A DNA stretch of 64,000 nucleotides. Origin: an uncultured Bacteroidales bacterium. Its GTDB lineage: Bacteria > Bacteroidota > Bacteroidia > Bacteroidales > UBA11471. Positions 50,091-64,000 of the stretch are shown piece after piece; within the stretch, counting starts at the first letter, position 1; every line of letters begins with the position of its first letter. The position numbers and the translations under genes were made by a program. The stretch is from contig CALUZW010000006.1 of the NCBI GenBank assembly GCA_944325415.1, forward strand, positions 1 to 64,000, read 5' to 3'. The notes below the pieces were generated by a model. That model was not told where the DNA came from. It did not search any database and saw nothing but the letters and a program-made list of their open reading frames with translations.

Positions 50091-50167
50091 TCTTCAGTAG
50101 CTCAGTCGGTTAGAGCATCTGACTGTTAATCAGAGGGTCGTAGGTTCAAGTCCTACCTGAAGAGCCA
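50091..50167 (+). tRNA. tRNA-Asn (GTT), first copy
   Basis: The acceptor stem TCTTCAG pairs with CTGAAGA. The anticodon loop CTGTTAA carries anticodon GTT, and the T loop is GGTTCAAGTCC. The discriminator base is G and CCA is encoded at 50165-50167. Confidence 0.97.
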
Positions 50168-50207: not shown

Positions 50208-50281
50208 TCTTCAGTAGCTCAGTCGGTTAGAGCATCTGACTGTTAATCAGAGGGTCGTAGGTTCAAGTCCTACCTGAAGAG
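50208..50281 (+). tRNA. tRNA-Asn (GTT), second copy
   Basis: The mature sequence is identical to the first copy, 40 bases downstream. The bases after the discriminator G are CCG, so a 3' CCA is not encoded and must be added by the tRNA nucleotidyltransferase. Confidence 0.97.
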
Positions 50282-50284
50282 CCG

Positions 50285-50320: not shown

Positions 50321-50426
50321 TTTTACCTGTTTTAGTCTTTTTTCGGAAGAGTTAGTACATATCGTGGGGGGTGAATCGTGCAGAAAATCAGTCTTTCTGT
50401 GTCAACTTCCCGCTGCGGATAAAACG

Positions 50427-50460
50427 AAACCCCCGTTGGCCAATCGGCCGACGGGGGTTT
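50427..50460 (-). terminator. Terminator of the long SusC-to-BspA gene cluster
   Basis: AAACCCCCGTTGGCC (50427-50441) pairs with GGCCGACGGGGGTTT (50446-50460), with one G-U pair. It lies just after the stop of the BspA-like gene on the minus strand. No comparably strong hairpin was seen in the short gaps upstream to the window edge. Confidence 0.85.
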
Positions 50461-50484
50461 CTGTATGTGAGAGAAACGAAGTGT

Positions 50485-52698
50485 TTAGAGAACGACTTTG
50501 AATACCTCGTTGCCCACTTTTACCAGGAAGATACCCTTCATGTCGAGGGTCAGCGAGAGAGCCGAACCGTCGGCCACGGCACTCTTCACCTGAGCGCCAC
50601 TCAGGGCGATGACGGTTACCGGTGTGCCGGCAGCGGCGCCTTCGACAACGATGGCGTCGGCAGTAGCGTAAACGGCCGTTGTGCTGTTGCTTTCAACGCT
50701 CTCGATGGCAGAAGTCGACTCGTTGATGACGGGGAACTTGGCCCATTCGATGCCGGCGCGGTAGGTGTCGGCACAGCCTTTGGGCACGACGAGGGTGTAG
50801 CCCAGGTCGTTGTAGTTCTCTTCGGCCGGTTTAGACGAGAGTACGCTGCTGAAAGCACGTTCGGCGGCTTTGGTGGCGGTGCCGAGACATACGACAGTCT
50901 TCAACGCCTTGGGTTGATAGAAGGCGCAGGGAGCGATGGAGTCGACCGATGCGGGAATGGTGATGGTCTCAATGGCGTTGCATTGATAGAAGGCATTCTC
51001 GCCGATGACCTTGGCTCCCTCAGGCAGGATAATCGAGGTGGCTACCTTGCAGCCGCGGAAGCTGTTGTTGCCGATTTTTTCCATGGCGGTGCAGTCGCTC
51101 AAATCGATTGTTTCGAGAGCAGAGTTGAGGTTGAGGAAGGCACGGTTGCCGATGGTGGTGAGCGAGGTGCAGCCGGTGAAGTCGATCGAAGCGATTACCT
51201 TATCGTTGGTGAAAGCATAGTCGCCAATCGATTCGAGTTTGGCACAACCGTTGAAAGATACGGTGGTAAGAGTCTCCTGTATCGAACCGAAAGCATAGGT
51301 ATGGATTTCTTTCAGTTCGGCGCAGTTGCTCAGGTCTACGGTTTCGAGCTCGGCCATGTAGAAAGCTTCGTCGCTGATGGTTACGAGCGAGTTGGGGAGC
51401 ACAACTTTTTTGAGCGATTTGTTGCTCTTGAAGGTTGCTTCGGGAATGGTGTTCTCGGCGTAGGTTACATCGCCCTCGGTCGAGGCCACGATGTTGGCGC
51501 CGCTCAGGTCGAGGGTAGCCAGGGCGGGCATACCGTTGAGGGTGTCGAGGTCGGCTTTGTTGATGGAGCCGGTTACGGTGAGGGCGGTCAGGGTAGCGGC
51601 CTCATCGGCGGTGAGAAGGGTACTGAGCGTACCGGCGGTCTCTACGGCTACGACTTTTCCGTCGCCCGGCTCTTCGGCAGCTTCGTTGATGACGGGGAAC
51701 TTGGCCCACTCGATGCCGGCGCGGTAGGTATCGGCACAGCCCTGGGGTACAACGAGGGTGTAGCCCTTGTCGGTGTAGTTCTCCTCAGCAGGTTTGGTCG
51801 AGGGCGAAGAGATGTAGGTGTTGTTGGAGAAAGCCATTTCGGCGGCGCGGGTATCGGTGCCGAGGCATACGACAGTCTTCATCGCTTTGGGTTGTCCGAA
51901 AGAGTGGGGAGCGATGGAATCGACCGAAGCGGGCAGGGTGATGGTTTCGAGCGAATGGCAGGAGTAGAAGGCACCCATACCGATGATTTCGACATTCTCG
52001 GGAAGAGTGAGCGAGGTCATTTTCTTCAACGATTTGAAGCTGCTCTTTCCGATGACGGTGAGCGACGTGCAATCGCTCAGGTCGAGCGTCGTGAGGGCTT
52101 CGCGCACGTTGTTGAAGGCATTGGCCCCGATTGTGGAGAGGCTGGTGCAGCCGGTGAAGTCGATGGTGGCGATGTAGAAGTCGTTGGAGAAAGCATATTC
52201 GTCGATGGTGGTGAGTTTGGAGCAGCCGTTGAAAGAGAGGCTTTCAAGACCGTCGATACCACCGAAGGCTCTGTAACCCACCGTTACGAGTTCGGGACAA
52301 GCGCTCAGGTCGATGGCCTTGATGTTGATACAGTCGGCGAAGGCTTCGGTTCCGATATATTGGAGCGAGGCGGGGAAGAGTACCGAAACAAGAGCCTCAT
52401 TGCCCATGAAGGTTGCTTCGGGAATGGTGTTCTCGGCGTAGGTTACATCGCCCTCGGTCGAGGCTACGATGTTGGCGCCGCTCAGGTCGAGGGTAGCCAA
52501 GGCGGGCATGCCGTTGAGGGTGTTGAGGTCGGCTTTGTTGATGGAGCCGGTTACGGTGAGGTCGGTCAGGGTAGCGGCCTCATCGGCGGTAAGGAGGGTA
52601 CTGAGTGTACCGGCTGTTTCCACAGCCACGGTTTTGGTCTGTGCGTGTCCCAAAGCAAAACAGCTGAGGAACGCCGTGAAGAGTAAAAGTTTCTTCAT
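50485..52698 (-). CDS. BspA-like leucine-rich repeat protein with T9SS tail
   Basis: This 737-residue protein has a signal peptide (residues 1-19) and two homologous halves of about 310 residues. Each half starts with a VAVETAGTLSTLLTADEA segment and continues as LRR_5 repeats (IGxxAFxxCxxLETIxLPxSV). A C-terminal domain of about 75 residues (VYATADAIVVEGAAAG, then SLTLDMKGIFLVKVG) has the T9SS sorting-tail pattern. BspA-type proteins bind host proteins and other bacteria; this role is family knowledge. It is the last gene of the long minus-strand cluster, 28 bases after the membrane-protein gene. Confidence 0.9.
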   Translation of the reverse strand: MKKLLLFTAFLSCFALGHAQTKTVAVETAGTLSTLLTADEAATLTDLTVTGSINKADLNTLNGMPALATLDLSGANIVASTEGDVTYAENTIPEATFMGNEALVSVLFPASLQYIGTEAFADCINIKAIDLSACPELVTVGYRAFGGIDGLESLSFNGCSKLTTIDEYAFSNDFYIATIDFTGCTSLSTIGANAFNNVREALTTLDLSDCTSLTVIGKSSFKSLKKMTSLTLPENVEIIGMGAFYSCHSLETITLPASVDSIAPHSFGQPKAMKTVVCLGTDTRAAEMAFSNNTYISSPSTKPAEENYTDKGYTLVVPQGCADTYRAGIEWAKFPVINEAAEEPGDGKVVAVETAGTLSTLLTADEAATLTALTVTGSINKADLDTLNGMPALATLDLSGANIVASTEGDVTYAENTIPEATFKSNKSLKKVVLPNSLVTISDEAFYMAELETVDLSNCAELKEIHTYAFGSIQETLTTVSFNGCAKLESIGDYAFTNDKVIASIDFTGCTSLTTIGNRAFLNLNSALETIDLSDCTAMEKIGNNSFRGCKVATSIILPEGAKVIGENAFYQCNAIETITIPASVDSIAPCAFYQPKALKTVVCLGTATKAAERAFSSVLSSKPAEENYNDLGYTLVVPKGCADTYRAGIEWAKFPVINESTSAIESVESNSTTAVYATADAIVVEGAAAGTPVTVIALSGAQVKSAVADGSALSLTLDMKGIFLVKVGNEVFKVVL
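50721..52632 (-). repeat. Tandem ~1-kb duplication inside the BspA-like gene
   Basis: DNA at about 50721-51654 and 51683-52632 is closely similar. The segment starting CGTTGATGACGGGGAACTTG recurs at 50721 and 51683, and the stretch around GTACTGAG recurs at 51620 and 52598. The central LRR parts differ more than the edges. Confidence 0.85.
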
Positions 52699-52726
52699 AG
52701 GACTTTTTGATTAAAGGTGAATAGAA

Positions 52727-53599
52727 TTATTTGGTTACATGTTTTTTGCGGAAGAAGAGTCCGGCCGAGAAGAGCAGGAAGACAACGAACATGATGATGA
52801 TTTCGGTCTTGTACTGGCCCGGTTCGGTCCATATTTCGTGGAAGAAGTCCCAGCGGCCGAGAATTTCGACGAAATTCCAGAAGATGATGACCGTGGGAAT
52901 GGCATAACGTATGGCGTAGCCTATTTTGCGGATTTTCATGAGCTTTACAAAGAGATAGGCCGACCACACGAGGCTGCCGAAGGCTATGAAGGCCGTGACG
53001 GGGTGCCGGTCGCCCAGAATCTGGTCGTCGTAGGCAAACATCAATAACAGATAGCAGGCCCACAGCAGGATATTGGTCTCGACAAAGGTAGTAAGCGAGT
53101 GGTTGCTGTGTACCGTGTGCAGCGACTCTTCGTGGCGGTTGATGCGCAGCGCCTTCTGTATCCAGCTGAAAAAGACACAGCGGGTGCGGGCACTGAATAT
53201 GTAGAACATGAGGATAATGGCCAGGAAACCTACCGACGACATCATGACGAGGTATTCGGGTTTGGTAACGATTTCGCCGTTTTCCATGGCGGGAGCTACG
53301 TTGTAGCGGCGGGCAAAGTAGACGAAGGTAAACTCTATCCACCCGGTCCATGTCATGAGACCGCCGATGAGGCCGGCAAAGGTGGCTCCGTTTTCGTTTT
53401 TGATGTAGAAGCCCCAGATAGCCAGAGCGGCGCCCAGGAGCCCCAGTACGAAGGCCGCGGGGGTGAGATAGGTTTCTCCTAATGTCTTTTCCATGATAAT
53501 CATGGCGGCATGACCCAGCGGCATGGTGAAAAGTACAATCATGAAGGCGGCGAACCCTACAAACGAGATTTTTTGTTGTTTAGCATTTGTTGTCTCCAT
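52727..53599 (-). CDS. Unknown polytopic membrane protein
   Basis: This 290-residue protein has seven to eight predicted membrane helices, a short N-terminal cytoplasmic segment and a basic C-terminus (FFRKKHVTK). Charged or aromatic residues sit near the membrane edges (TGWIEFTFVYFARRYN, ILGRWDFFHEIWTEPG). No family is recognised. It lies 37 bases after the second DUF4857 gene and 28 bases before the BspA-like gene on the same strand, so it is likely co-transcribed with the ABC system. Confidence 0.75.
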   Translation of the reverse strand: METTNAKQQKISFVGFAAFMIVLFTMPLGHAAMIIMEKTLGETYLTPAAFVLGLLGAALAIWGFYIKNENGATFAGLIGGLMTWTGWIEFTFVYFARRYNVAPAMENGEIVTKPEYLVMMSSVGFLAIILMFYIFSARTRCVFFSWIQKALRINRHEESLHTVHSNHSLTTFVETNILLWACYLLLMFAYDDQILGDRHPVTAFIAFGSLVWSAYLFVKLMKIRKIGYAIRYAIPTVIIFWNFVEILGRWDFFHEIWTEPGQYKTEIIIMFVVFLLFSAGLFFRKKHVTK

Positions 53600-53636
53600 A
53601 ATAGTGATGAATTTTTGGGGTGAGAAGATAGATGGT

Positions 53637-54854
53637 TTATTTCCGGTTGGGGAAGAGCCATACGGCTATCAGGCCGTAGATACCTGTCAGCAGTATGACG
53701 ATGGCATCGCCCATGTTTTCGGGGCGTTTGAACGAGCGGCGCTTGTAGAGCTTGACGGCGGCCCACACCAGGAAGCACATGAGATTGACGATGCAGAAGT
53801 CGCGTACCGGGTTGGGCAGGGGTATGAAGTGGGCATAGCCCGGTGTCTTCATCGTTGCGAAGGGGAAGAGATGTCTCTCCCAGGCAGCCTCGCGGGTATC
53901 GTCGTAGTGGTCGATTTTCTCGGCGTGGCGTGCGACGAAGCCAAACGACGGATCAAGGGCAAAGAGTATGCTCGTGTCTTTTTCGCTTGTCTTGTAGGTG
54001 CGGAAGAAGTCGTTCGAGGTCATGAAGCAGCGTCCCGACGGTATCTCTATCGGAAGGGGCAACAACCGGTAGTCGGTCGTGAGTACATAGAGACGGTTGT
54101 CGGTATCGAAGATGTGGCAGAATATCTCTTCGTCGGTATGACATTTGATGTTCTTTATCTCGAACCCGGTCTCGATGTGTCGGCAGTAGGGAGCGCCTTT
54201 TGCCATCATCAGGTGGAAGAGGCGGCCGTTGCGGTCGGTGATGAAGTAGCCGCTGTCCCAGCGTTTGATAACCGAGGGTATGCCGTAGATGTCGCGGGCG
54301 GGAGCTTCAAAGCCGGCAGCCTGCATGGCCTGGGCGAAGCGTGCGCTCTTCTCGGGGAGTATCTCGCCCGTCGTGCAGTCGATAAACTCGATGCCCCTCT
54401 TGCCGATGCGGAAGATGTCGTCGGGGAGCGAGACCCCTACCCTTTCGGGTGCCGACTCGAAAAGCGGGGCAAGTCCGTAGCTGAACGAGCGGTCGGCCAC
54501 GAGCATGCTGCGTTTCACGTTTTTCAGCACGTCGGTCGTGAGGGCGACACCGTCGAGCGAGTCGGGCATGAGGCCCATGAGTTTCAGTTTACGGCGGTTG
54601 TTGAAGGGCAACAGCTGCATGTATTCGGTCTCGGTGAGAAGATTACCCCGGGTGTCGTAGTAAAGCATGGCGGCTTCCTGGGTGGTGGAGTCGATGCTTT
54701 CGCGGGCAATGACGAAGTCGTGCGACACTTCGCTGAAATATATCATGGTTTTCAGCGGACGTTTCTCGACCGTGCGTTGGTAGAGCGACGGCAGATAGAA
54801 CGACAGGGTGAAGATGGTGATGAGTATCAGGAGGAAACGTACAATCTTTGCCAT
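53637..54854 (-). CDS. DUF4857 protein, copy 2
   Basis: This 405-residue protein has one N-terminal membrane helix (about residues 5-22), a periplasmic domain of about 300 residues, and two C-terminal helices near 345-395. It shares with copy 1 the segments GFEAPxxxI and FxxDRNGRLFxLxMxxGAP. DUF4857 is a Bacteroidetes family found beside ABC permeases; its function is unknown. The frame opens upstream at 55031, but that part overlaps the permease gene; 54854 gives a membrane-anchor N-terminus. A two-base gap separates it from the permease. Confidence 0.82.
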   Translation of the reverse strand: MAKIVRFLLILITIFTLSFYLPSLYQRTVEKRPLKTMIYFSEVSHDFVIARESIDSTTQEAAMLYYDTRGNLLTETEYMQLLPFNNRRKLKLMGLMPDSLDGVALTTDVLKNVKRSMLVADRSFSYGLAPLFESAPERVGVSLPDDIFRIGKRGIEFIDCTTGEILPEKSARFAQAMQAAGFEAPARDIYGIPSVIKRWDSGYFITDRNGRLFHLMMAKGAPYCRHIETGFEIKNIKCHTDEEIFCHIFDTDNRLYVLTTDYRLLPLPIEIPSGRCFMTSNDFFRTYKTSEKDTSILFALDPSFGFVARHAEKIDHYDDTREAAWERHLFPFATMKTPGYAHFIPLPNPVRDFCIVNLMCFLVWAAVKLYKRRSFKRPENMGDAIVILLTGIYGLIAVWLFPNRK

Positions 54855-54856
54855 AA

Positions 54857-55537
54857 TCAGAGCTCTCCTTTGTTGAAACGGTGCGACGTGTAGATAACTG
54901 CCAGGCTCGATATCAGGGTGATGATGAGCAGCAGCGGGTAGGCGGTTACAGCATTTCCCACCCCGTAGCCGAGGTAGAAAAAGCGCAGGGTGAAGTAGGC
55001 GATGAGGATATAGCCGAAGCGGAATTTCCACACCGGCTCAAAGGCTATCATCGCCGTGAAGAAATAGGCGGTCATACCGCCAAGCAACCAGGGCAGCAGG
55101 GTCTGCAAGGTGGCGACGGTCACCTCTGCCGGGAAGCTGACTGCCAGTGTGATGACCGTGATGAGCAGGGCCGGCAGCAGGGTGCAGCAGAAGACGGCAA
55201 GGCCATAGAGCACCATGGTGTAGACAACGGCCGTACAGCCCACGGGCAGGTGCAGGGTGAGGCGTATGCGCTTGTTGGTAATCTCGGGCAGGAACTGGGG
55301 CAACCCTATGAGCAGAGCTATTGCCAGAGGCAGGTATTTGAGCTGAGTCATGAGGGCGATATTGCCCGTCAGCAGGGTCGAGTAGAAGAAGGCGCCGCCC
55401 AGGTCGTGAAGCATGGATACGGCATTGATGCAGGTATAGACCGACAGGGCGAGGCTCACCACCAGCCCTATGGCGGCGTACCAGCGTGTCTTTATCCACT
55501 CTTTATAGAGCAGGTGTTTTATCTGTGTGCGTGTCAT
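54857..55537 (-). CDS. ABC-2-type permease-like protein, copy 2
   Basis: This 226-residue protein has six predicted membrane helices and the family-like segment KRIRLTLHLPVG between helices 2 and 3, which is also found in copy 1. The start overlaps the stop of DUF4857 copy 1 by four bases. It is likely a half-permease for the ABC ATPase at 57477-58370. The transport direction cannot be told; no solute-binding protein is encoded nearby, which favours export, extraction or immunity. Confidence 0.8.
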   Translation of the reverse strand: MTRTQIKHLLYKEWIKTRWYAAIGLVVSLALSVYTCINAVSMLHDLGGAFFYSTLLTGNIALMTQLKYLPLAIALLIGLPQFLPEITNKRIRLTLHLPVGCTAVVYTMVLYGLAVFCCTLLPALLITVITLAVSFPAEVTVATLQTLLPWLLGGMTAYFFTAMIAFEPVWKFRFGYILIAYFTLRFFYLGYGVGNAVTAYPLLLIITLISSLAVIYTSHRFNKGEL

Positions 55538-56787
55538 AGCGGAAGTTTGTCTTTTTTATCGTTGCGGCGGTAAGGTATGGCAAATGCGCCGGCCATGCCG
55601 CAGAGGCCCAGCAGCAGTACCAGAAGGGTGTCGATGACCAGTATAGGAAGTTTGTATCCCTGACGGCGGCGCAGTAGGAGGGTAACAATGGCCAGCACTA
55701 CGTTGACGAGCAGGAAGTGGGCCGGGTTGCCCCAGCGCAGGCCGATGCCCGACGAGGCCGACTGTGTAATGCGCACCGGCAGCAGGTAATCGGCCGCCTT
55801 GAAGGCGTTGTCGGTCGCAGGGTGGGCCGAGACGTACCGGTTTACCGGACGCAGGGCCTTGTCGATGACAACATACTCGGTAGAGTCGGCCGCATCGAGC
55901 GTGAAGAAGTAGTAGAAGAGGTTGCCCGAGAGCGAGACGCTCTTGCCTGTGAACGAGGGGAGCGGCAGGCGCTGATACGAAACGCTGTCGCGGGGCATGA
56001 GGTAGCTGCTGCCGTCGGTGGTAACGACGATAGCCAGGAAATCTTCTTCGTCGCCGAAGCTCATGAGAAGCACCTCTTTGTCGTCGGGGCGGGCAAGCGG
56101 TTCGACAACGGGAGCCCCCTCGGTCATGGAGAGGCGGAAGAGGCGGCCATTACGGTCGTTGAGGAAAAAGCCCAGCTGTTCGATGTCGGTGCGGTTCGAG
56201 GGTGACCATATGCGGGTCATCGGCGCTTCAAAGCCACTCTCGGCGAGTGCCCGGTCGAAGATGCGGGTCTTGGCCGTGTCGATGCTGTTGCTTTCGGGAA
56301 GGAGAAATTCCAGCCCCGTTGCGGTGAAGCGCAGGAGGTCTTGCGTGTTGAATTTTTGCGACAGGTAGCTATGGCTGTCGACCAGGTCGTAGAGGCCATA
56401 GTCGAGAGCGGGCATCGATATGCGGTGGCGGAAGACAGCCTCTTCGGCCTGCCGTGCCGTAACGGCTACACCGCAGATGGTGTCGGGGAAGCGGTTTTCA
56501 AAAGCCAGTTGGGTGGCATTGTTGAGCGGGCTGAGTGAGTCGACAGCCGAACGGTCGATGCGGTTGCCCTGCGAGTCTCGATACACCGTGTAGGAGATCA
56601 TTCGTCCCTCTTCGTAGACCGATTCGTAGCGGGAGAAGATAAAATCCTGCAAGATTTCGGAATAGATGGCGTCGGTATAGAGATGGGAAAAGGAGCTCCG
56701 GCCACTCTTGCAGAAGTGGGGCAGAACGAGGGCTGCGGCTACGGCCGTAAAAAGAGCGGCGATGATATGCAGTATCTTGTGTGTCAT
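55534..56787 (-). CDS. DUF4857 protein, copy 1
   Basis: This 417-residue protein has the same plan as copy 2: N-terminal membrane helix, long periplasmic beta-rich domain with GFEAPMTRIW and LNDRNGRLFRLSMTEGAP, and two C-terminal helices. The two copies are clearly homologous but well diverged, so the duplication is old. It overlaps permease copy 1 by one base and permease copy 2 by four, so the four genes are translationally coupled. The periplasmic domain may hold or recognise the substrate (inference). Confidence 0.82.
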   Translation of the reverse strand: MTHKILHIIAALFTAVAAALVLPHFCKSGRSSFSHLYTDAIYSEILQDFIFSRYESVYEEGRMISYTVYRDSQGNRIDRSAVDSLSPLNNATQLAFENRFPDTICGVAVTARQAEEAVFRHRISMPALDYGLYDLVDSHSYLSQKFNTQDLLRFTATGLEFLLPESNSIDTAKTRIFDRALAESGFEAPMTRIWSPSNRTDIEQLGFFLNDRNGRLFRLSMTEGAPVVEPLARPDDKEVLLMSFGDEEDFLAIVVTTDGSSYLMPRDSVSYQRLPLPSFTGKSVSLSGNLFYYFFTLDAADSTEYVVIDKALRPVNRYVSAHPATDNAFKAADYLLPVRITQSASSGIGLRWGNPAHFLLVNVVLAIVTLLLRRRQGYKLPILVIDTLLVLLLGLCGMAGAFAIPYRRNDKKDKLPL

Positions 56788-57470
56788 TATCTTTCTCCTT
56801 TATTTAATCGGTAACCACTGAACAGAACGAGCGGGCACGACAGCAGCGCCATCAGCGCCAGTACGGGCATGGAGGTGCTGTAAGCCCCGTGGAAGGGTAC
56901 ATGGTAGAGATAGAGCGAGAGCACGACGATGCCGGTGAGGGCATAGAAGAGCTGCCGCATGCGGTTGGGTTCGAGAGCCGTGAAGGCGATGAAGTTGTAG
57001 ACCCAGTATGCGGCGAGGAACCACCCCAGCAGGGTCTCACGCACGGGCACCGTCACCTCGGCCGGGAAGAGAACGCTGTTTTTGTAGCAGAACAGGGCGA
57101 GGACGATGGCGTTGAAGAGCGTGATGAGCAGCAGGCCGTAGAGAGCCATTCCGGCTACGAGCGTGCGGTTGCCCACGGGCAGGTGCAGGGTGAGGCGTAT
57201 GCGGCGCTGGGCCACCTCGGGGGCGTATTGCGACACGCCTATGCACACGGCGGCCAGCAGCGGTATGTAACGCAGCAGTCCGTAGTAGATGACGGGCGGA
57301 TTGTTGTACAGCATATACAGGGTGTAGCCCTTGGCGCCCATGAGCGTGATGCGGTTTTCGACGCCGATGAAGATATAGAAGACCACACCGATGCCCACTA
57401 TCAGCGTGCCGAAGAAAGCGGCGCGGGTCTTAATCCATTCCTTGTAGAAGAGATGCCATATCGGTTTCAT
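56787..57470 (-). CDS. ABC-2-type permease-like protein, copy 1
   Basis: This 227-residue protein has six predicted membrane helices, LFYKEWIKTRAAF at the N-terminus (compare LLYKEWIKTRWYA in copy 2) and RRIRLTLHLPVG in the middle. It lies six bases downstream of the ATPase gene and overlaps DUF4857 copy 1 by one base. It is probably one half of a heterodimeric permease with copy 2. Confidence 0.82.
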   Translation of the reverse strand: MKPIWHLFYKEWIKTRAAFFGTLIVGIGVVFYIFIGVENRITLMGAKGYTLYMLYNNPPVIYYGLLRYIPLLAAVCIGVSQYAPEVAQRRIRLTLHLPVGNRTLVAGMALYGLLLITLFNAIVLALFCYKNSVLFPAEVTVPVRETLLGWFLAAYWVYNFIAFTALEPNRMRQLFYALTGIVVLSLYLYHVPFHGAYSTSMPVLALMALLSCPLVLFSGYRLNKGER

Positions 57471-57476
57471 TGCCTC

Positions 57477-58370
57477 TTAGTATTTACCGGTGAGACCTAT
57501 GAATGCGTCTTCGAGCGTGAGATTCATGCGCGAGAAGTTGCGGTAGGCGAGCCCTTTGGCATCGAGCAGGGCCTTGACGGCCGTCTCGTCGTCGTAGGTG
57601 TAGAACTCGTAGTGGTTGTTGATGTGTTCGACGTTGGCTGCCTCGTCTTTGCCGAAGGTTACGTCATCGCGGTCGAGGTCGAACGCGAAGCCCTTGAAGC
57701 GGTCGGTAAAGTCTTTGACGGGTCCTTGCACCAGCATGCGGTTGTAGTCCATGATGATGACGTCGTCGATGAGGCGTTCCATGTCTTGAATGATGTGCGA
57801 GGTGAGGAACACGGTCTTGTGCTGGCTCTTGCAGTACTCTCTCATGTAGTCGATGAAGAGGCGGCGGTAACCCGGGTCGAGACCGAGCGAGAAGTCGTCG
57901 AGAATGAGCAGGTCGGGATCCTGGGCGAGGATAAGGCCGAGGGCCACCTGGGCACGTTGTCCGCACGACATGGTCGATATTTTCTGGTGGGGGGTGATTT
58001 TCAGGCGGTTTATCAGCGACCAGTAGGCGTCGCGGTTCCAGTTGTCGTAGAATCCGGAGTAGAATTTCTCTATCTGGTGTACGTTCATGAAGCTATACTG
58101 GATGTGCCCCTCGATGAGGTATCCGATGCGTTTCTTGGTCTCGGGCGAGAGGTTCTGCGTGTCTTCGCCGTAGATGAGACATTGGCCCGAGCGGGGTTCG
58201 AGAAAGCCGTTGAGAATGTTTATCGTGGTGCTTTTCCCGGCGCCGTTCTTTCCCAGCAGGCCCATGATGTGGCCTTCGGGAACGACGATGTTCAGATTTT
58301 CGTAGACGAGTTTCTTCCCGTAGTAATGGGTGAGATTCCTACATTCGATGACAGGACGTTCTGCGTTCAT
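57477..58370 (-). CDS. ABC transporter ATP-binding protein
   Basis: This 297-residue protein has Walker A GKNGAGKST (residues 40-48), signature SCGQR (135-139, in place of SGGQR), Walker B LLILDDF (154-160) and H-loop TSHIIQDM (His192). The usual catalytic Glu after the Walker B Asp is Asp159 here. A C-terminal domain of about 80 residues follows. The family resembles the ATPases of ABC-2 and bacitracin- or lantibiotic-type exporters. The frame opens upstream at 58448 within the PKD-like gene; the ATG at 58370 leaves a normal 22-base gap. It is the sole ATPase for the two permease copies. Confidence 0.9.
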   Translation of the reverse strand: MNAERPVIECRNLTHYYGKKLVYENLNIVVPEGHIMGLLGKNGAGKSTTINILNGFLEPRSGQCLIYGEDTQNLSPETKKRIGYLIEGHIQYSFMNVHQIEKFYSGFYDNWNRDAYWSLINRLKITPHQKISTMSCGQRAQVALGLILAQDPDLLILDDFSLGLDPGYRRLFIDYMREYCKSQHKTVFLTSHIIQDMERLIDDVIIMDYNRMLVQGPVKDFTDRFKGFAFDLDRDDVTFGKDEAANVEHINNHYEFYTYDDETAVKALLDAKGLAYRNFSRMNLTLEDAFIGLTGKY

Positions 58371-58392
58371 ATTTAGAGGATTAGGTTTACAA

Positions 58393-59898
58393 TTATCGAG
58401 CTGTGAAGAAGACACCGCGACCCGGCAGCAGGTCGGTGTATTCGGCATAGATGCGGCCGGTTACCGTGTCGTAGACACACAGGGTGGTCTTGCGGGTCTC
58501 GGCGTTGTAGAGGAAGGCTACCGTACAGTCGTCTTCGTCGCGGAAGGTGCTGCCCTGCAAGACGAAGAGGTCGAGAAGTTCGAGGTTCTCGTCCCATTGT
58601 ACCAGCGGGGCGGCTGCGGGGGTGAAGGCTGTCATGTCGTGGTAGTCGAAGCGGTAGACGGCATTGCGGGTGGCGTAGAAGGCATACTCCTCGCCGAAGG
58701 AGCCGAACCAGTAGCGCACCTCTCCCACCAGGTCGGCCGGCAGGTCAAAGGCGGCTTCGTGTACGATGGGTTGCACCGTGGTCTTGACGTAGTCGACGTG
58801 GAAACGGTGCATCTGGTAGGCGCCGTTGCGTCCCCCTACGAGGTAGATGTCGTAGGGCTTGTTGGAGCCTTCGCCGGTGGCTTGCGTGAAGCAGCCGCAG
58901 ATGGTGTCGAGCATGAACGGTTCGCCGTCGGCTGTTACCCACTCCATCACGTCGTCGTATACGTGGAAGCAGCCTACCCGTCCGTCGTTGTGGCGCACGA
59001 AGGTGGCCTTCTTGAAGCGCATGAACTGCTTGGAGGAGACGCTTTGGGCGACGCCGGTACTTTTGATGTAGGTGCTTTCGTCGTACATGGGCAGCCGCTT
59101 TTCGAGGCCGTTGAAGACGTGCAGCGTACCGTTGCTGATGAGGTATTTGCTGGCACCTTCGCCATAGACCACGTTTTTGATGTCGAGTGTGGGTTCGCTG
59201 CCGAGGTACACGCGGCCGTAGATGTTGCCCACGATTTCGCCCACGTTGGCCACGAAGTCGTCGCCCTCGTCGGAGTCGATCATGCTCACCGTGACGCCGT
59301 AGTCGGGCGTGTGGCCGGTGAAGATGGCTATTTCGTCGGTCGAGTTGAAGGCTCCGATGAAGGGGCCCGGCACGGTGGTGCCGTTTACGCGATCTATCAT
59401 GTTGTCGTAGGTGCGGGTCCACTCATAGGGAGTGCCCTGCAACGACATCCATTCGACGTTTCCTTCGTCGGTTTCGTAGATGGCGATGTATTCGGGGGTG
59501 TATCCGGTGAGAAGACGCAGGGTGAAGGTCTGGCGGAATTCGAGTTCGTTCACCGTGTTGCGCACCACCAGTACGCCGGGAATGTCGCTGTCGAGCTTGT
59601 AGCCTTCGGGCAGGGCAACCTCCCAGTCGAGGTTTTTCTCGCGCGAGATGACTTCGCTTTTCCCGATAATCCAGCGGTAGTCGTAGTCGCCGGCCCGGGT
59701 GCTGTCGGAGAAGGTAATCTGCGGCTCACAGGTGAAGCGGTCGCCGAGGTAGAGGGTGTAGCCCTCGCTCGAAATGCCCGACACGGCGATGACGTGGTCG
59801 GGTGTCCATGTGGCCGTGCTGTCCTTGTCTTGCAGGCAGCTGCCGCACACGCCTGCGATGAGCAGGCTCAGGGTGTATATGAGGAGATTTCTTTTCAT
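58393..59898 (-). CDS. PKD-like family lipoprotein
   Basis: This 501-residue lipoprotein has its Cys near residue 20 (GVCGSC) followed by LQDKD. The first 170 residues contain a PKD-like Ig fold; the rest looks like a propeller or repeated beta sheets (TPDYGVTVSMIDSD, KPYDIYLVGGRNGAYQM). Such lipoproteins regularly follow SusC, SusD and DUF4843 genes in Bacteroidetes and are thought to sit on the surface as cargo-binding partners. It overlaps the DUF4843 gene by four bases. Confidence 0.85.
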   Translation of the reverse strand: MKRNLLIYTLSLLIAGVCGSCLQDKDSTATWTPDHVIAVSGISSEGYTLYLGDRFTCEPQITFSDSTRAGDYDYRWIIGKSEVISREKNLDWEVALPEGYKLDSDIPGVLVVRNTVNELEFRQTFTLRLLTGYTPEYIAIYETDEGNVEWMSLQGTPYEWTRTYDNMIDRVNGTTVPGPFIGAFNSTDEIAIFTGHTPDYGVTVSMIDSDEGDDFVANVGEIVGNIYGRVYLGSEPTLDIKNVVYGEGASKYLISNGTLHVFNGLEKRLPMYDESTYIKSTGVAQSVSSKQFMRFKKATFVRHNDGRVGCFHVYDDVMEWVTADGEPFMLDTICGCFTQATGEGSNKPYDIYLVGGRNGAYQMHRFHVDYVKTTVQPIVHEAAFDLPADLVGEVRYWFGSFGEEYAFYATRNAVYRFDYHDMTAFTPAAAPLVQWDENLELLDLFVLQGSTFRDEDDCTVAFLYNAETRKTTLCVYDTVTGRIYAEYTDLLPGRGVFFTAR

Positions 59899-60608
59899 AG
59901 GTCGAAGTAGATGCGGTTTCCGGTTTCTTCGTCGTAAATTTCGTTTTCGAGGAAGTATTGCGTGCAGAGGTTTATCCAGTATTCGAGTTGTATGGTACCG
60001 CCGGCATCAATCCAGTCGGGGTCGGTAATGCCGCTTATTTCGAGGAATACCTCACATTTCTTGGGGTGGTAGGGTATCTTGGCCAGCTTGCTGTTGTTCG
60101 ACCAGAAGTTGGGCATGGTGTTGAGGTTCTTCATGAAGTCGATGACGACATACTGATAGTCGGGCACACCGGAGTCGAAGGTCTCGCCCGGTACCAGTTC
60201 GAGCCATATGCGGTAGTCGTCTTCGGTGTTGAGGGCTCCCACATGTATCGTTACCGTCACGGAATCCTGATAGAGGCCTTTACGGAAGGTCTGTTCCTCG
60301 CTGAGCGAGTAATGCACGCCGTTCTCGGCGTTCTGGCTTTTCTCGGCGTTGGCCCGCACCGTGTAGTGGCGGTCGTTGTCGTAGTCGATGGTGCCTTGCA
60401 GCCTGACGGGGATTTGCAACTCGTAGTCGCCTGCCCCCACGCCCAGGAAGTAGGCGTTGAACGAGTAGCTCTCGGGATAGGTGCCGGGGTTGAATTCTCC
60501 CTTGGCAAAGTTGAGGGCGGGACGCTCGGCGTTGTAGAGGTCGATAACATCTTCGCGGCAGGCGGTGCAGAGGCTGAGTGCCACAAGCAGGTAGAGGTAT
60601 TTTTTCAT
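59895..60608 (-). CDS. DUF4843 lipoprotein
   Basis: This 237-residue lipoprotein has a signal of about 17 residues ending in CTAC, followed by REDVIDLYNAERPALNF, the typical start of DUF4843. Two beta domains follow. DUF4843 proteins accompany SusCD pairs and the PKD-like lipoprotein; the function is unknown. A GTG at 60614 lies two codons upstream; the ATG at 60608 is preferred. Confidence 0.85.
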   Translation of the reverse strand: MKKYLYLLVALSLCTACREDVIDLYNAERPALNFAKGEFNPGTYPESYSFNAYFLGVGAGDYELQIPVRLQGTIDYDNDRHYTVRANAEKSQNAENGVHYSLSEEQTFRKGLYQDSVTVTIHVGALNTEDDYRIWLELVPGETFDSGVPDYQYVVIDFMKNLNTMPNFWSNNSKLAKIPYHPKKCEVFLEISGITDPDWIDAGGTIQLEYWINLCTQYFLENEIYDEETGNRIYFDL

Positions 60609-60628
60609 GTTCACGTCCTCCGTGTATT

Positions 60629-62086
60629 TTATTGGGCTCCGTAGCCGAAGTCCTGTTCATACTCGGGCAGCGGCCAGGTGTAGTTGGCCGTGCTCATTTT
60701 CACGGTGTTTCCCGTGTAGTAACCGTCGTCGATGGCCTGTGCATTGCGGCGTTTGTAGTAGAAAAACAACTGCCCCTCGCCCTTGAACTCGCAGATGTAT
60801 TCGCGGGTGAGCTGGGTCTCGACGGCGCTGTTGTCGGCTCCGGTGGGGAGGAGCGTGGTGTTGCGGTGGCTTTTCAGCGTGTTGAGCCAGTCGGCGGCAC
60901 TCCGGCTGCTGCACGAGGGGTCGTTCAGTGCCGCTTCGGCAGCGATGAGGTACATCTCGCCCAGTTTGAGCATCGGCACGGCGGGCTTGTCGTAGAGGTG
61001 GGCATCTTCGGCCAACGTGGAGCGCTGGTAGCGAATGAGGTTTATCTTGTTGTTGGCGCTGGGGTTGGTATAGAGCCAGTTGCGGCGCAGGTCGCCGCTC
61101 TCGTAGCAGGCACCTGATTTGACGAAGTCGCCACCGAGGCTTTCATAGTAAGCTTGTGATATGCCGAGGATATTTTCATTGCCGAGGGTGAAAATCATCT
61201 CGGGCATGAAGAGACGGTCGATTTTCAGCTCTTTTCCGTAGATATCGGTCTCGATGATTTCCTCTTCTTCGATAAACCGGAAGGTGGGGCAGGCGATGAC
61301 CTCTTCGGCATAGGCGCAGGCTTGGGCGTAGTTGCCCCGGTAGAGTTCGATGCGGGCCAGCAGTGCCGTGGCGGCGTAGTAGTTCATGCGGAAGCGGCGG
61401 TCGTAGTTTACATATTTGTTCGACGAGGCGATGCCGGTGATTATCGGATCATGCTCTTTGAGCAGCTGACGGGCCATGGTGAGCTCTTCGACGAGGTAGT
61501 CGAGGGCCTGGGCGGTGGTGGCCTGTTCGCCAAGGGCGAAACCGAAATCTTTTTTCAGAGGCACGTTGCGGCAGGTGGGGTCGACGCTGTATGCCGTGTT
61601 ATAGATACGCAGCAGGTCGAAGAACATGTAGGCCCGCAGGCCGAGGGCTTCGCCGGTGAGTATCTCGCGCACCCCTTCGTCGAAGGGCGGGCAATCCTCT
61701 TTTTGCAGGTTTTCGATGAGCAGGTTGTCGTTGACAATCGTGTTGTACATTGTACCCCATACGGCGTCGATGAAGGTTTTGGCGCCGTCGGTGGTGTAGT
61801 CGTACTGGCCCCACTTCTGCCGGTCGGGGTCGTTGTCGGGCTGGGTGTACTGCTGGGTGAGCGGTTCGAGGGCCGCGAGCGGCAGGAGGCCGCCGTAGAT
61901 GTCGGAGTTGCCCATATTGACATAGATACCCGTGATGGCCGTGTAGTAGCCGTCGGTGTTGAGAAACATCTCGTCGCCGTCGATTTCGGAGTTGCTGCCC
62001 ACGTCGAGCCAGGAGCAGGCCGAGAACGAGGCCGTCAGTAGCAGCGAGGCCAGCAGGTGTGATATGTTGAGGTTGACGTTTTTCAT
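60629..62086 (-). CDS. SusD/RagB-family lipoprotein
   Basis: This 485-residue lipoprotein has its Cys in FSACSW near residue 24. SusD features are the N-terminal TPR-like helices (EALGLRAYMFFDLLRIYN, YYAATALLARIELYRGNYAQA) and the C-terminal end (LKLGEMYLIAAEAAL, FKGEGQLFFYYKRRNAQ, PLPEYEQDFGYGAQ). It forms the lid over the SusC channel and captures oligosaccharides or peptides at the cell surface. It lies four bases after susC. Confidence 0.95.
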   Translation of the reverse strand: MKNVNLNISHLLASLLLTASFSACSWLDVGSNSEIDGDEMFLNTDGYYTAITGIYVNMGNSDIYGGLLPLAALEPLTQQYTQPDNDPDRQKWGQYDYTTDGAKTFIDAVWGTMYNTIVNDNLLIENLQKEDCPPFDEGVREILTGEALGLRAYMFFDLLRIYNTAYSVDPTCRNVPLKKDFGFALGEQATTAQALDYLVEELTMARQLLKEHDPIITGIASSNKYVNYDRRFRMNYYAATALLARIELYRGNYAQACAYAEEVIACPTFRFIEEEEIIETDIYGKELKIDRLFMPEMIFTLGNENILGISQAYYESLGGDFVKSGACYESGDLRRNWLYTNPSANNKINLIRYQRSTLAEDAHLYDKPAVPMLKLGEMYLIAAEAALNDPSCSSRSAADWLNTLKSHRNTTLLPTGADNSAVETQLTREYICEFKGEGQLFFYYKRRNAQAIDDGYYTGNTVKMSTANYTWPLPEYEQDFGYGAQ

Positions 62087-62090
62087 ACGG

Positions 62091-64000
62091 TTAGAAGTTT
62101 ATGTAGGCCGAAAAGTTGATGGAGCGGGCGTAGGGATAGTTGAGACCCCTCTCCTGCTTGATGGTCGAACAGTAGAATATCTCGTTTCCGGTGACGGAGA
62201 ATTTCAGCATCGAGAGGTTGCGGCCGCGCAGCACCGAGGCCGGTACCGTGTAGCTCACGCGCAGCGAGGTGAGGCTCAGCAGCCGCTCGCGTTGCACAAA
62301 GCGGGAGGTCGACTGCGTAACGCTGTTGTCGTTGATGGCTTTGTAACGGGCCACGTCGCCGGGTTGTTTCCAGCGTTCGGTAAGGGCGCGGCGGTCGTTG
62401 TTGACCATGTAGTCGACATTCTCTATTTTCTCGTGCAGGGTGTAGTTGTAGCGGTCGGCGCCGAACGAGTAGTTGAACGTGGCACCTATCTCCCACCCCT
62501 TGTAGCGGAAGTTGCTCCCGATGTACCCTTCGAGTATCGGCTCGTCGACACCTACCGGCACCTGGTCGTCGGCACTCCATGTGAAGGTCTTTTCACCCTC
62601 CTTGGTGAGGAAGATTTCCTTTCCTGTGCCCGGGTCTATGCCGAGGCTGCGCACGGCGTAGATGGTGTTCATCGACTCTCCCTCCTGGAAGAGGAAGACG
62701 TTGGCAGCCCCCTCTTCGGCCTCTTTGCTTATCTCTTCGTTGTACTTGCGCAGCGTGTCGGAGATGCGGGTGATGCGGTTGGTATTATGGGCACCGTTTA
62801 GGGTGAAGTTGAGCGTCAGGTCGCGGGTGCGCAGCGGGGTGTAGCTGAAACTGAATTCGACACCCTGGTTGGTGAGGTCGCCCATGTTGGTCTTGTAGGA
62901 GCTGAATCCTATCGAGGGGGCGATGGTGATTTCGGTAAGATTGCCCTGCGTGGTGTTGTAGTAGTAGTTGACGTCGAAGTTGAACTTGTTGTCGAAGAGT
63001 GTTCCTTCGGCGCCGATGTTGCGGTTGTAGGTGATTTGACCTTTGAGGTCGGGGTTACCGAGCGTGGAGATGATGGCACCGAAGTAGCCGCCATAGCTGG
63101 CGGTGAGGAACGTGTAGAGGCTGGTAGCCTGGCTCTTGGTGAAATTCTGGTTGCCGGTGGTACCGATGTTGAGGCGCAGGGCCAGCTTTTGCAGATGGTC
63201 GTTGCCTTTGAGGAACGACTCGTTGTGGGCGTTCCAGCGGAAACCGGCCGACCAGTACGGGGCGGTCTGCTGGTTTTTTCCATAAATCGACGAGCCGTCG
63301 ATGCGTCCGGTGAGGTCGACCAGGTAGCGGTTGCGGAACGAGTAGTTGAAGTTGGCAAACGTTCCGGCGGCCCGCACCTTGCTCTCGCTGCCCGACGGCC
63401 GTCCGTAGAGCTCGTACTGCACGCCGTAGGAGAGGTAGTTGAGGGCATCGCCCAGGAAGCCGGTGAGTGTGTAGCCGTCGCTGTTGTAATCGTCCTGGCT
63501 CACTTCACCACCCCAGATGGCCTGTATGTCGTGGTAGCCGAACGAGCGGGTGTAGGAGGCTACCACGTTGCCCTTGTAGCTGAGCGAAGAACTGTTTCTC
63601 AGCGTGTATTTTCCCCGGCTGTACAGCGTGCTGGGAGTAGTCGACGAGTTGTCGTCGCTGTTGATGTAGGAGAAGCTCTGCGGGGAGATGTAGGCGTCGG
63701 TGCGGTTGAAGCCGTACGATACCGAGAAGTTGGCCCGAATACGCAGGTCGGAGAATACCTCCCAGTTGACGCTGGTGTTGTTGGTGAGGTTATAGGTCTC
63801 TTTTTCGGTAAACGAGTTGAGGTATTTGGCTTCGTACACGGGCGACTCCTGCTGGGCAAGAATGGAGAGGCTCATGCCTTCGGGGGCGACATTGGCCAGC
63901 GACAGGGTGCGGTAGTAGTTGCCATCGGCATCTTTTTCGCGGTGGTAGGGCAGGGCCTGTGTGTAGCTCGAAAATTCGCCGTAGGGCGATTCGCTGTTGC
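62091..64000 (-). CDS. SusC/RagA-family TonB-linked outer-membrane protein, N-terminus outside window
   Basis: The C-terminal 636 residues or so of a SusC-type transporter are visible. The frame remains open to the right edge, where it encodes SESPYGEFSSYTQALPYH, typical of the mid-barrel region. The body shows strand-rich barrel sequence with GGYFGAIISTLGNPDLKGQ and YWSAGFRWNAHNE-type motifs common to the family, and it ends in SINFSAYINF. It imports its cargo with SusD using TonB energy. The signal, the CarboxypepD_reg domain and the plug lie outside the window. Confidence 0.95.
   Translation of the reverse strand, partial: NSESPYGEFSSYTQALPYHREKDADGNYYRTLSLANVAPEGMSLSILAQQESPVYEAKYLNSFTEKETYNLTNNTSVNWEVFSDLRIRANFSVSYGFNRTDAYISPQSFSYINSDDNSSTTPSTLYSRGKYTLRNSSSLSYKGNVVASYTRSFGYHDIQAIWGGEVSQDDYNSDGYTLTGFLGDALNYLSYGVQYELYGRPSGSESKVRAAGTFANFNYSFRNRYLVDLTGRIDGSSIYGKNQQTAPYWSAGFRWNAHNESFLKGNDHLQKLALRLNIGTTGNQNFTKSQATSLYTFLTASYGGYFGAIISTLGNPDLKGQITYNRNIGAEGTLFDNKFNFDVNYYYNTTQGNLTEITIAPSIGFSSYKTNMGDLTNQGVEFSFSYTPLRTRDLTLNFTLNGAHNTNRITRISDTLRKYNEEISKEAEEGAANVFLFQEGESMNTIYAVRSLGIDPGTGKEIFLTKEGEKTFTWSADDQVPVGVDEPILEGYIGSNFRYKGWEIGATFNYSFGADRYNYTLHEKIENVDYMVNNDRRALTERWKQPGDVARYKAINDNSVTQSTSRFVQRERLLSLTSLRVSYTVPASVLRGRNLSMLKFSVTGNEIFYCSTIKQERGLNYPYARSINFSAYINF

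Follow-up and report, generated by a model that had tools for sequence, protein, structure and literature searches.

The window analysed here is a 64,000-nucleotide stretch from an uncultured Bacteroidales bacterium of the UBA11471 lineage (positions 1 to 64,000 of contig CALUZW010000006.1, assembly GCA_944325415.1). Its right-hand end is occupied by a compact gene cluster combining SusC/SusD-type uptake proteins with a duplicated ATP-binding cassette (ABC) module that contains DUF4857 proteins. The open reading frame listing and Pfam matches place eleven consecutive genes on the minus strand. The first four code for the C-terminal part of SusC, a RagA-type TonB-dependent transporter (62091..64000; the full protein has 1114 residues, its gene starting beyond the window at contig position 65435), a SusD lipoprotein of 485 residues (60629..62086; PF14322 and PF07980 above cut-off, lipobox LTASFSAC), a DUF4843 lipoprotein (59895..60608; PF16132, 44 bits) and a 501-residue PKD-like lipoprotein (58393..59898; PF16407, PKD_2, 53 bits). 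Next come the gene for an ABC ATPase (57477..58370; PF00005), the only one for two permease/DUF4857 units, and those for permease 1 (56787..57470; 227 residues), DUF4857 protein 1 (55534..56787; 417 residues; PF16149, 188 bits), permease 2 (54857..55537; 226 residues) and DUF4857 protein 2 (53637..54854; 405 residues; PF16149, 243 bits). A transmembrane helix scan gives DUF4857 protein 1 an N-terminal helix, a periplasmic domain and two C-terminal helices. The cluster ends with the genes for a 290-residue polytopic membrane protein (52727..53599; hereafter MEM) and a BspA-type leucine-rich repeat (LRR_5) protein (50485..52698; PF13306, 223 bits), followed on the same strand by an intrinsic terminator (50426..50461; fold of -30.3 kcal/mol, z -6.1).

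The largest intergenic gap, between the genes for DUF4857 protein 2 and MEM, is 37 bases, and several junctions overlap by 1-4 bases. Internal terminator-like and promoter-like matches are no commoner than in shuffled sequence (15 versus 12.4 +/- 3.9 and 6 versus 5.1 +/- 2.1, respectively), which argues against a split into smaller units. The layout proposed in a sequence-only reading of this DNA thus agrees with the listing, the Pfam matches and the folding, except that the cluster extends beyond the window edge. A second SusD-like gene (contig 65436-66914; PF07980, PF14322) lies almost without a gap upstream of SusC, and further upstream follow a SusC-like gene (66917-69412; Plug slightly under cut-off), a conserved promoter-like stretch and a tRNA-Gln gene; the operon therefore comprises 13 genes with tandem SusCD pairs. 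The two pairs have diverged, the upstream proteins (SusC0 and SusD0) being 28.5% and 33.8% identical to SusC and SusD. We infer from layout and conservation that the 13 genes form a single transcript. None of them codes for a glycosidase or peptidase according to the reading frames and Pfam, and Pfam found no solute-binding protein in the operon. An Rfam scan for riboswitches returned tRNAs only, leaving a corrinoid system under cobalamin-riboswitch control without support.

The full order SusC0-SusD0-SusC-SusD-DUF4843-PKD_2-ATPase-permease 1-DUF4857 1-permease 2-DUF4857 2-MEM-LRR recurs in Coprobacter sp. RGIG4084 and in C. secundus 177, the latter belonging to a different GTDB family from the window genome. 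Across the eleven window genes, identity to C. secundus ranges from 31% (LRR protein) to 87% (ATPase), with 72% for SusC. In another genome, G001, the order is intact until the contig ends inside the LRR gene. Three Alistipes metagenome-assembled genomes (MAGs) carry the operon set without detectable MEM and LRR genes, and a Porphyromonadaceae and an Odoribacter MAG carry as much of it as their short contigs have room for. The SusC0/SusD0 pair is also kept in C. secundus, Coprobacter sp. and the Alistipes MAGs. The conserved co-occurrence of the ABC/DUF4857 part with SusCD, on which the earlier view of one operon-like cluster depended, is thus borne out in several lineages. In C. secundus, the operon is preceded by genes for an extracytoplasmic function (ECF) sigma factor and a FecR anti-sigma factor, and the STN domain of SusC scores above cut-off; control by cell-surface signalling is therefore likely there. 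The window SusC harbours Plug and CarbopepD_reg_2 domains and an STN-like N-terminus (STN, 13.7 bits).

In the window genome (G000), the operon, roughly 19 kb long, fills the interval between tRNA-Gln and two plus-strand tRNA-Asn(GTT) genes (50091-50167 and 50208-50283), which the Rfam scan and neighbourhood comparison identify as the downstream bound of an island. Its start adjoins the same tyrS and tRNA-Gln in G001. Three further genomes of the genus (G004, G005, G006) are devoid of DUF4857 and of the operon; there, tyrS-tRNA-Gln adjoins tRNA-Asn-prc, with the tRNAs 0.7-1.15 kb apart. In Coprobacter sp. RGIG4084 (G002), the operon lies at another site and other genes take up the interval (C7, L107:1751-9184; about 7.4 kb), a possible insertion hotspot of the genus. 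Presence in G000-G002, absence from G004-G006 and relocation in G002 thus indicate that the whole operon is acquired, lost or relocated together.

Both halves of the operon have relatives elsewhere. The SusC-SusD-DUF4843-PKD_2 type of module stands alone in many Bacteroidales, and PKD_2 was found in 31 of 392 genomes sampled from the order. In nine of ten opened PKD_2 loci, SusC and SusD genes precede the PKD_2 gene, with FecR upstream in several. Eight of the nine scanned tail proteins encoded after PKD_2 are thioredoxin/TlpA-like (L216-L219, L221, L223, L225), besides an S9 prolyl oligopeptidase (L219) and a Met-zincin with DUF5117 (L224). This redox/peptidase tail, usual for such modules, is missing from the window operon, in line with the earlier remark that no glycosidase or protease genes follow its SusCD pair. 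PDB sequence searches with the DUF4843 and PKD_2 proteins gave no match.

The 392 genomes include 53 with the ABC ATPase-permease-DUF4857 module, which is also present in Chitinophagaceae, Flavobacteriaceae and Calditrichota. We located the relatives' loci with the ATPase as the query. The module is usually single and accompanied by a TonB receptor, DUF4876, DUF6850 and a PepSY pair or a polyferredoxin-like 4Fe-4S membrane protein. Of the loci flanked by 4 kb or more of sequence in both directions, 46 of 50 in the order sample and 56 of 56 named ones lie within 9 kb of a SusC or other TonB receptor, in many cases one not of the SusC type. As a rough control, 1 of 17 MEM-centred loci had one nearby, against a nearly identical reference set. 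These counts speak for a functional link between the ABC/DUF4857 part and TonB-dependent uptake across the outer membrane, as had been supposed. The module is rarely without a TonB receptor nearby, and because of this tie we dropped the proposed immunity-type exporter, free-standing or as the leading interpretation. In Prolixibacteraceae and other Bacteroidales (L122-L190, e.g. L126, L134, L141), DUF4857 loci contain genes for the polyferredoxin-like 4Fe-4S protein, an ECF sigma factor and a BNR protein with a type IX secretion system (T9SS) tail, a partner set that differs from the PepSY pair of Bacteroides. A SusC-SusD pair directly ahead of ATPase-permease-DUF4857 was also found in Chitinophagaceae (L145). 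The window operon is a hybrid, in which a SusC-SusD-DUF4843-PKD_2 module devoid of its tail is joined to an ABC/DUF4857 module.

The AlphaFold2 model of permease 2 (pLDDT 92.2, 72 aligned sequences) has NosY (Z 15.0, 4.2 Å over 198 residues) and CcmB (Z 14.5, 4.3 Å over 200) as its top PDB matches, followed by ABCG proteins (Z ~11-13.5; ABCG1 Z 13.5, 4.0 Å over 211) and PmtCD (Z 10.2). Permease 2 is therefore predicted to be an ABC-2/type V permease, and so is permease 1 by homology (38% identity; family alignment). This prediction, together with Pfam, upholds the earlier assignment as an ABC-2-type transporter, here NosY/CcmB-like, in which one ATPase is shared and a solute-binding protein is lacking. 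The model of DUF4857 protein 2 (pLDDT 91.7, 74 aligned sequences) comprises one N-terminal transmembrane helix, a periplasmic domain of many antiparallel strands and two C-terminal transmembrane helices. Its matches are weak ones to beta-propellers (Z up to 9.2) that cover part of the chain, and 'propeller-like' is therefore the safe wording; NosD was absent among the listed matches, no direct comparison with NosD having been made. The ATPase has Walker A GKNGAGKST, signature MSCGQR, H-loop TSH and a Walker B motif, LILDD (LILDDFS), in which Asp replaces the catalytic Glu. This Walker B or a close variant, along with MSCGQR, is found in 130+ of 136 DUF4857-linked ATPases, which suggests slow or unusual ATP hydrolysis. 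The best NCBIfam match of the ATPase is PmtA (143 bits, cut-off 350).

In a DUF4857 tree, eight copies of the first DUF4857 protein form one clade and seven of the second another. Butyricimonas, with the order ATPase-permease-DUF4857-ATPase-permease-DUF4857, has one copy grouping with the former (SH-aLRT 86) and one with the latter (90), at moderate support. Read most simply, the whole unit would have been duplicated long ago, after which the permeases and DUF4857 proteins diverged and the Coprobacter/Alistipes/Odoribacter type lost one of its ATPases, leaving a single ATPase that would now serve both pairs. The two permease/DUF4857 pairs would then make up a heterodimer, to which duplication of an originally homodimeric ATPase-permease-DUF4857 unit gave rise. 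Tandem duplications were also seen in Butyricimonas and Prolixibacteraceae (L117, L118, L178, L179), with ATPases 91-100% identical and strongly diverged permeases and DUF4857 proteins. The Butyricimonas pairs are 91-92% (ATPases), 38% (permeases) and 31% (DUF4857 proteins) identical; in a separate tandem copy in Mariniphaga, the ATPases are identical over 295 residues and the permease/DUF4857 pairs have diverged. The ATPases of these copies look as if kept constant by gene conversion or shared use.

MEM has no Pfam or NCBIfam match, and homologues were found in 22 of the 392 genomes. Of 17 opened MEM loci, three are hmu-like: CobN-HmuT-ExbB-DUF2149-MEM (L197), HmuR-HmuY-MEM (L207) and HmuY-TonB receptor-MEM (L202). 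Four others (L199, L201, L203, L204) contain flavodoxin, DUF6686 and/or hemerythrin genes. The MEM family, for which Pfam has no model, is a candidate new iron-starvation membrane protein. The LRR protein consists of two similar halves, with for instance VAVETAGTLSTLLTADEAATLT repeated, pointing to a recent internal tandem duplication. Its description as a T9SS surface protein fits in part: the BspA/LRR_5 assignment stands, the window genome encodes SprA and the C. secundus orthologue has a TIGR04183 tail above the cut-off of 23 bits (32.7), but the type A-like tail of the window protein scores 13.9 bits, below it.

Published data connect relatives of two of these parts with iron. In B. thetaiotaomicron, BT3625-BT3633, which encode DUF4857, a hypothetical protein, an ABC ATPase, two PepSY transmembrane proteins, a fimbrillin-like protein, two DUF4876 proteins and a TonB receptor, are up 36.7-128-fold under iron depletion and 14-19-fold in tabulated colitis data (PMC10434189). 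P. gingivalis PG1019-22 (DUF4876, TonB receptor) are up 20.8-214.5-fold under iron depletion, the same study lists flavodoxin and hemerythrin genes among those induced by iron starvation (PMC10434189), and a P. gingivalis DUF4876 gene is among those most changed by hemin availability (PMC10470040). For XusABC, iron release has been proposed to proceed via an inner-membrane PepSY reductase and then an inner-membrane transporter not yet known; the same 2026 study describes the inner-membrane crossing of iron after TonB-dependent uptake in gut Bacteroides as unknown (PMC13142918). The PepSY and polyferredoxin partners of the relatives' modules would suit a release of iron by reduction such as that proposed for XusC (PMC13142918). 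The iron link is guilt by association for the ABC/DUF4857 part and MEM. HmuY is intact only in three operon-less species of the genus and missing in G000 (83% complete), G001 and C. secundus (G151); G002 and G003 have broken-up matches only. Its absence looks complementary to operon presence, a pattern from few independent lineages to which we attach little weight because G004-G006 are close relatives. CobN is absent in all eight genomes (G000-G006, G151), with or without the operon. The literature searched contained no SusCD linked to iron or haem uptake and no combination of SusCD with paired ABC/DUF4857 modules.

We put at about one half the probability that the 13-gene operon serves to take up an iron-type ligand that is scarce, an iron chelate or a haem-containing ligand being the likeliest; the substrate and the direction of transport are those that we infer. 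Going by the protein families, the two SusCD pairs and the DUF4843 and PKD_2 lipoproteins would capture the ligand, with TonB-energised passage through the outer membrane. At the inner membrane, a complex of one kind of ATPase, two NosY/CcmB-like permeases and two DUF4857 proteins would use ATP to drive a periplasmic step, in which the propeller-like domains may receive the ligand, release or pass on its metal, or clear the stripped ligand. MEM might assist as an iron-starvation membrane factor and, as pure speculation, might act as the reductase. That SusCD imports iron or haem chelates while an ATP-driven NosY-like motor and two membrane-anchored DUF4857 domains strip or hand over the metal in the periplasm is a tentative, somewhat unlikely version of this proposal. 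Uptake of an iron-type ligand is supported by the gene order in several species, the TonB association, the iron-linked relatives, the NosY/CcmB fold and the duplication. NosY and CcmB are transporters tied to copper-site and haem maturation. Several points weigh on the other side: no reductase or iron permease could be recognised in the operon, ABC-2/NosY-like permeases for the most part export or act in mechanotransmission rather than import, the NosY score (Z 15) is modestly above those of the ABCG rows (Z 11-13.5), 10 of the 17 MEM loci are of mixed context, and guilt by association across modules may fail after recombination.

The SusC/SusD/DUF4843/PKD_2 type, usually found with thioredoxin-like and peptidase genes, would suit peptides at least equally well. 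SusCD might thus import oligopeptides or a small protein, with the ABC/DUF4857 part exporting or detoxifying a harmful peptide that enters the same way, a credible but rather unlikely alternative. The thioredoxin-like proteins, Met-zincin and S9 peptidase that follow such modules elsewhere are consistent with it, as are the ABC-2 fold without a solute-binding protein and the matches to PmtCD, a phenol-soluble modulin exporter, and PmtA. However, the operon lacks a peptidase, and the ABC/DUF4857 module is nearly always found with TonB receptors, many of them non-SusC, one relative being strongly induced by iron limitation (PMC10434189). Of the earlier idea of peptide uptake combined with protection, the ligand keeps a lesser chance, most cues, namely the BT3625-33 induction and the MEM homologues in hmu-like and flavodoxin/hemerythrin loci, pointing to iron or haem. 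The permease fold, the membrane-anchored periplasmic domain of its partner and the relatives' polyferredoxin and PepSY proteins would also be compatible with a maturation system that loads a metal or haem cofactor on periplasmic or outer-membrane proteins, as NosDFY and CcmAB do, with SusCD supplying the cofactor. This appears quite unlikely, as no client (NosZ, cytochrome) was noticed in the neighbourhoods inspected, where NosZ was not searched for, and the listed matches of the DUF4857 model are propellers, the NosD beta-helix not being among them. Lastly, two or more independent units might have been packed together by recent rearrangement. Although the island is variable in the genus (present in G000-G002, absent from G004-G006) and the MEM/LRR tail was not found in the Alistipes MAGs, the order kept across several lineages, the overlapping stops and starts and the chance-level internal terminators make such accidental neighbourhood highly improbable.

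If the more specific version is correct, in which the NosY-like motor and the DUF4857 domains strip or hand over the metal, the operon would represent a new type of metal-acquisition machine, which could account for the inner-membrane step that follows TonB-dependent uptake of iron in Bacteroidota. SusCD complexes have been studied as glycan and peptide importers. DUF4857/ABC modules, widespread and nearly always located by a TonB receptor, have had no assigned function. The operon is conserved and present in a named strain, C. secundus 177, where the function of these modules is testable.

With respect to known systems, the operon resembles a SusCD uptake locus, with a SusC-type transporter adjoining a SusD lipoprotein in two tandem pairs, but lacks a substrate-processing enzyme, which is usual though not obligatory. 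It shares the outer-membrane half, in the same order and with related SusC proteins (564-685 bits), with SusC-SusD-DUF4843-PKD_2 loci such as L217, L219 and L224; those carry ECF/FecR genes and a TlpA-like/peptidase tail, where the window operon has ABC/DUF4857 instead, and ECF/FecR genes, present in C. secundus, are not adjacent in the window genome. The absence of a solute-binding protein sets it apart from ABC importers that use one. With hmuYRSTUV and XusABC it may have in common TonB-coupled iron or haem capture in Bacteroidota, and MEM homologues occur in some hmu-like operons, but it encodes neither HmuY nor the CobN-like HmuS that mark an hmu haem operon, and no ExbB, DUF2149 or PepSY. 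Its permease fold, small ATPase, lack of a solute-binding protein and periplasmic partner (as for NosY) recall NosDFY/CcmAB; it differs from them in its membrane-anchored propeller-like DUF4857 in place of NosD and in its Walker B Asp, and no nos or ccm genes were seen nearby. Like BT3625-BT3633 of B. thetaiotaomicron, it couples an ATPase, a small permease and DUF4857 to TonB-dependent uptake, with an ABC ATPase-permease-DUF4857 set adjoining a TonB receptor. BT3625-BT3633 include one DUF4857 only, accompanied by DUF4876 and PepSY, whereas the window operon, devoid of DUF4876, DUF6850 and PepSY/polyferredoxin, has SusCD, DUF4843, PKD_2 and MEM in their stead, a duplicated permease/DUF4857 unit and the LRR protein. 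Each half of the operon belongs to a kind of locus already described, whose function is known in part at best, and what seems to be new is their combination and the pairing of the modules.

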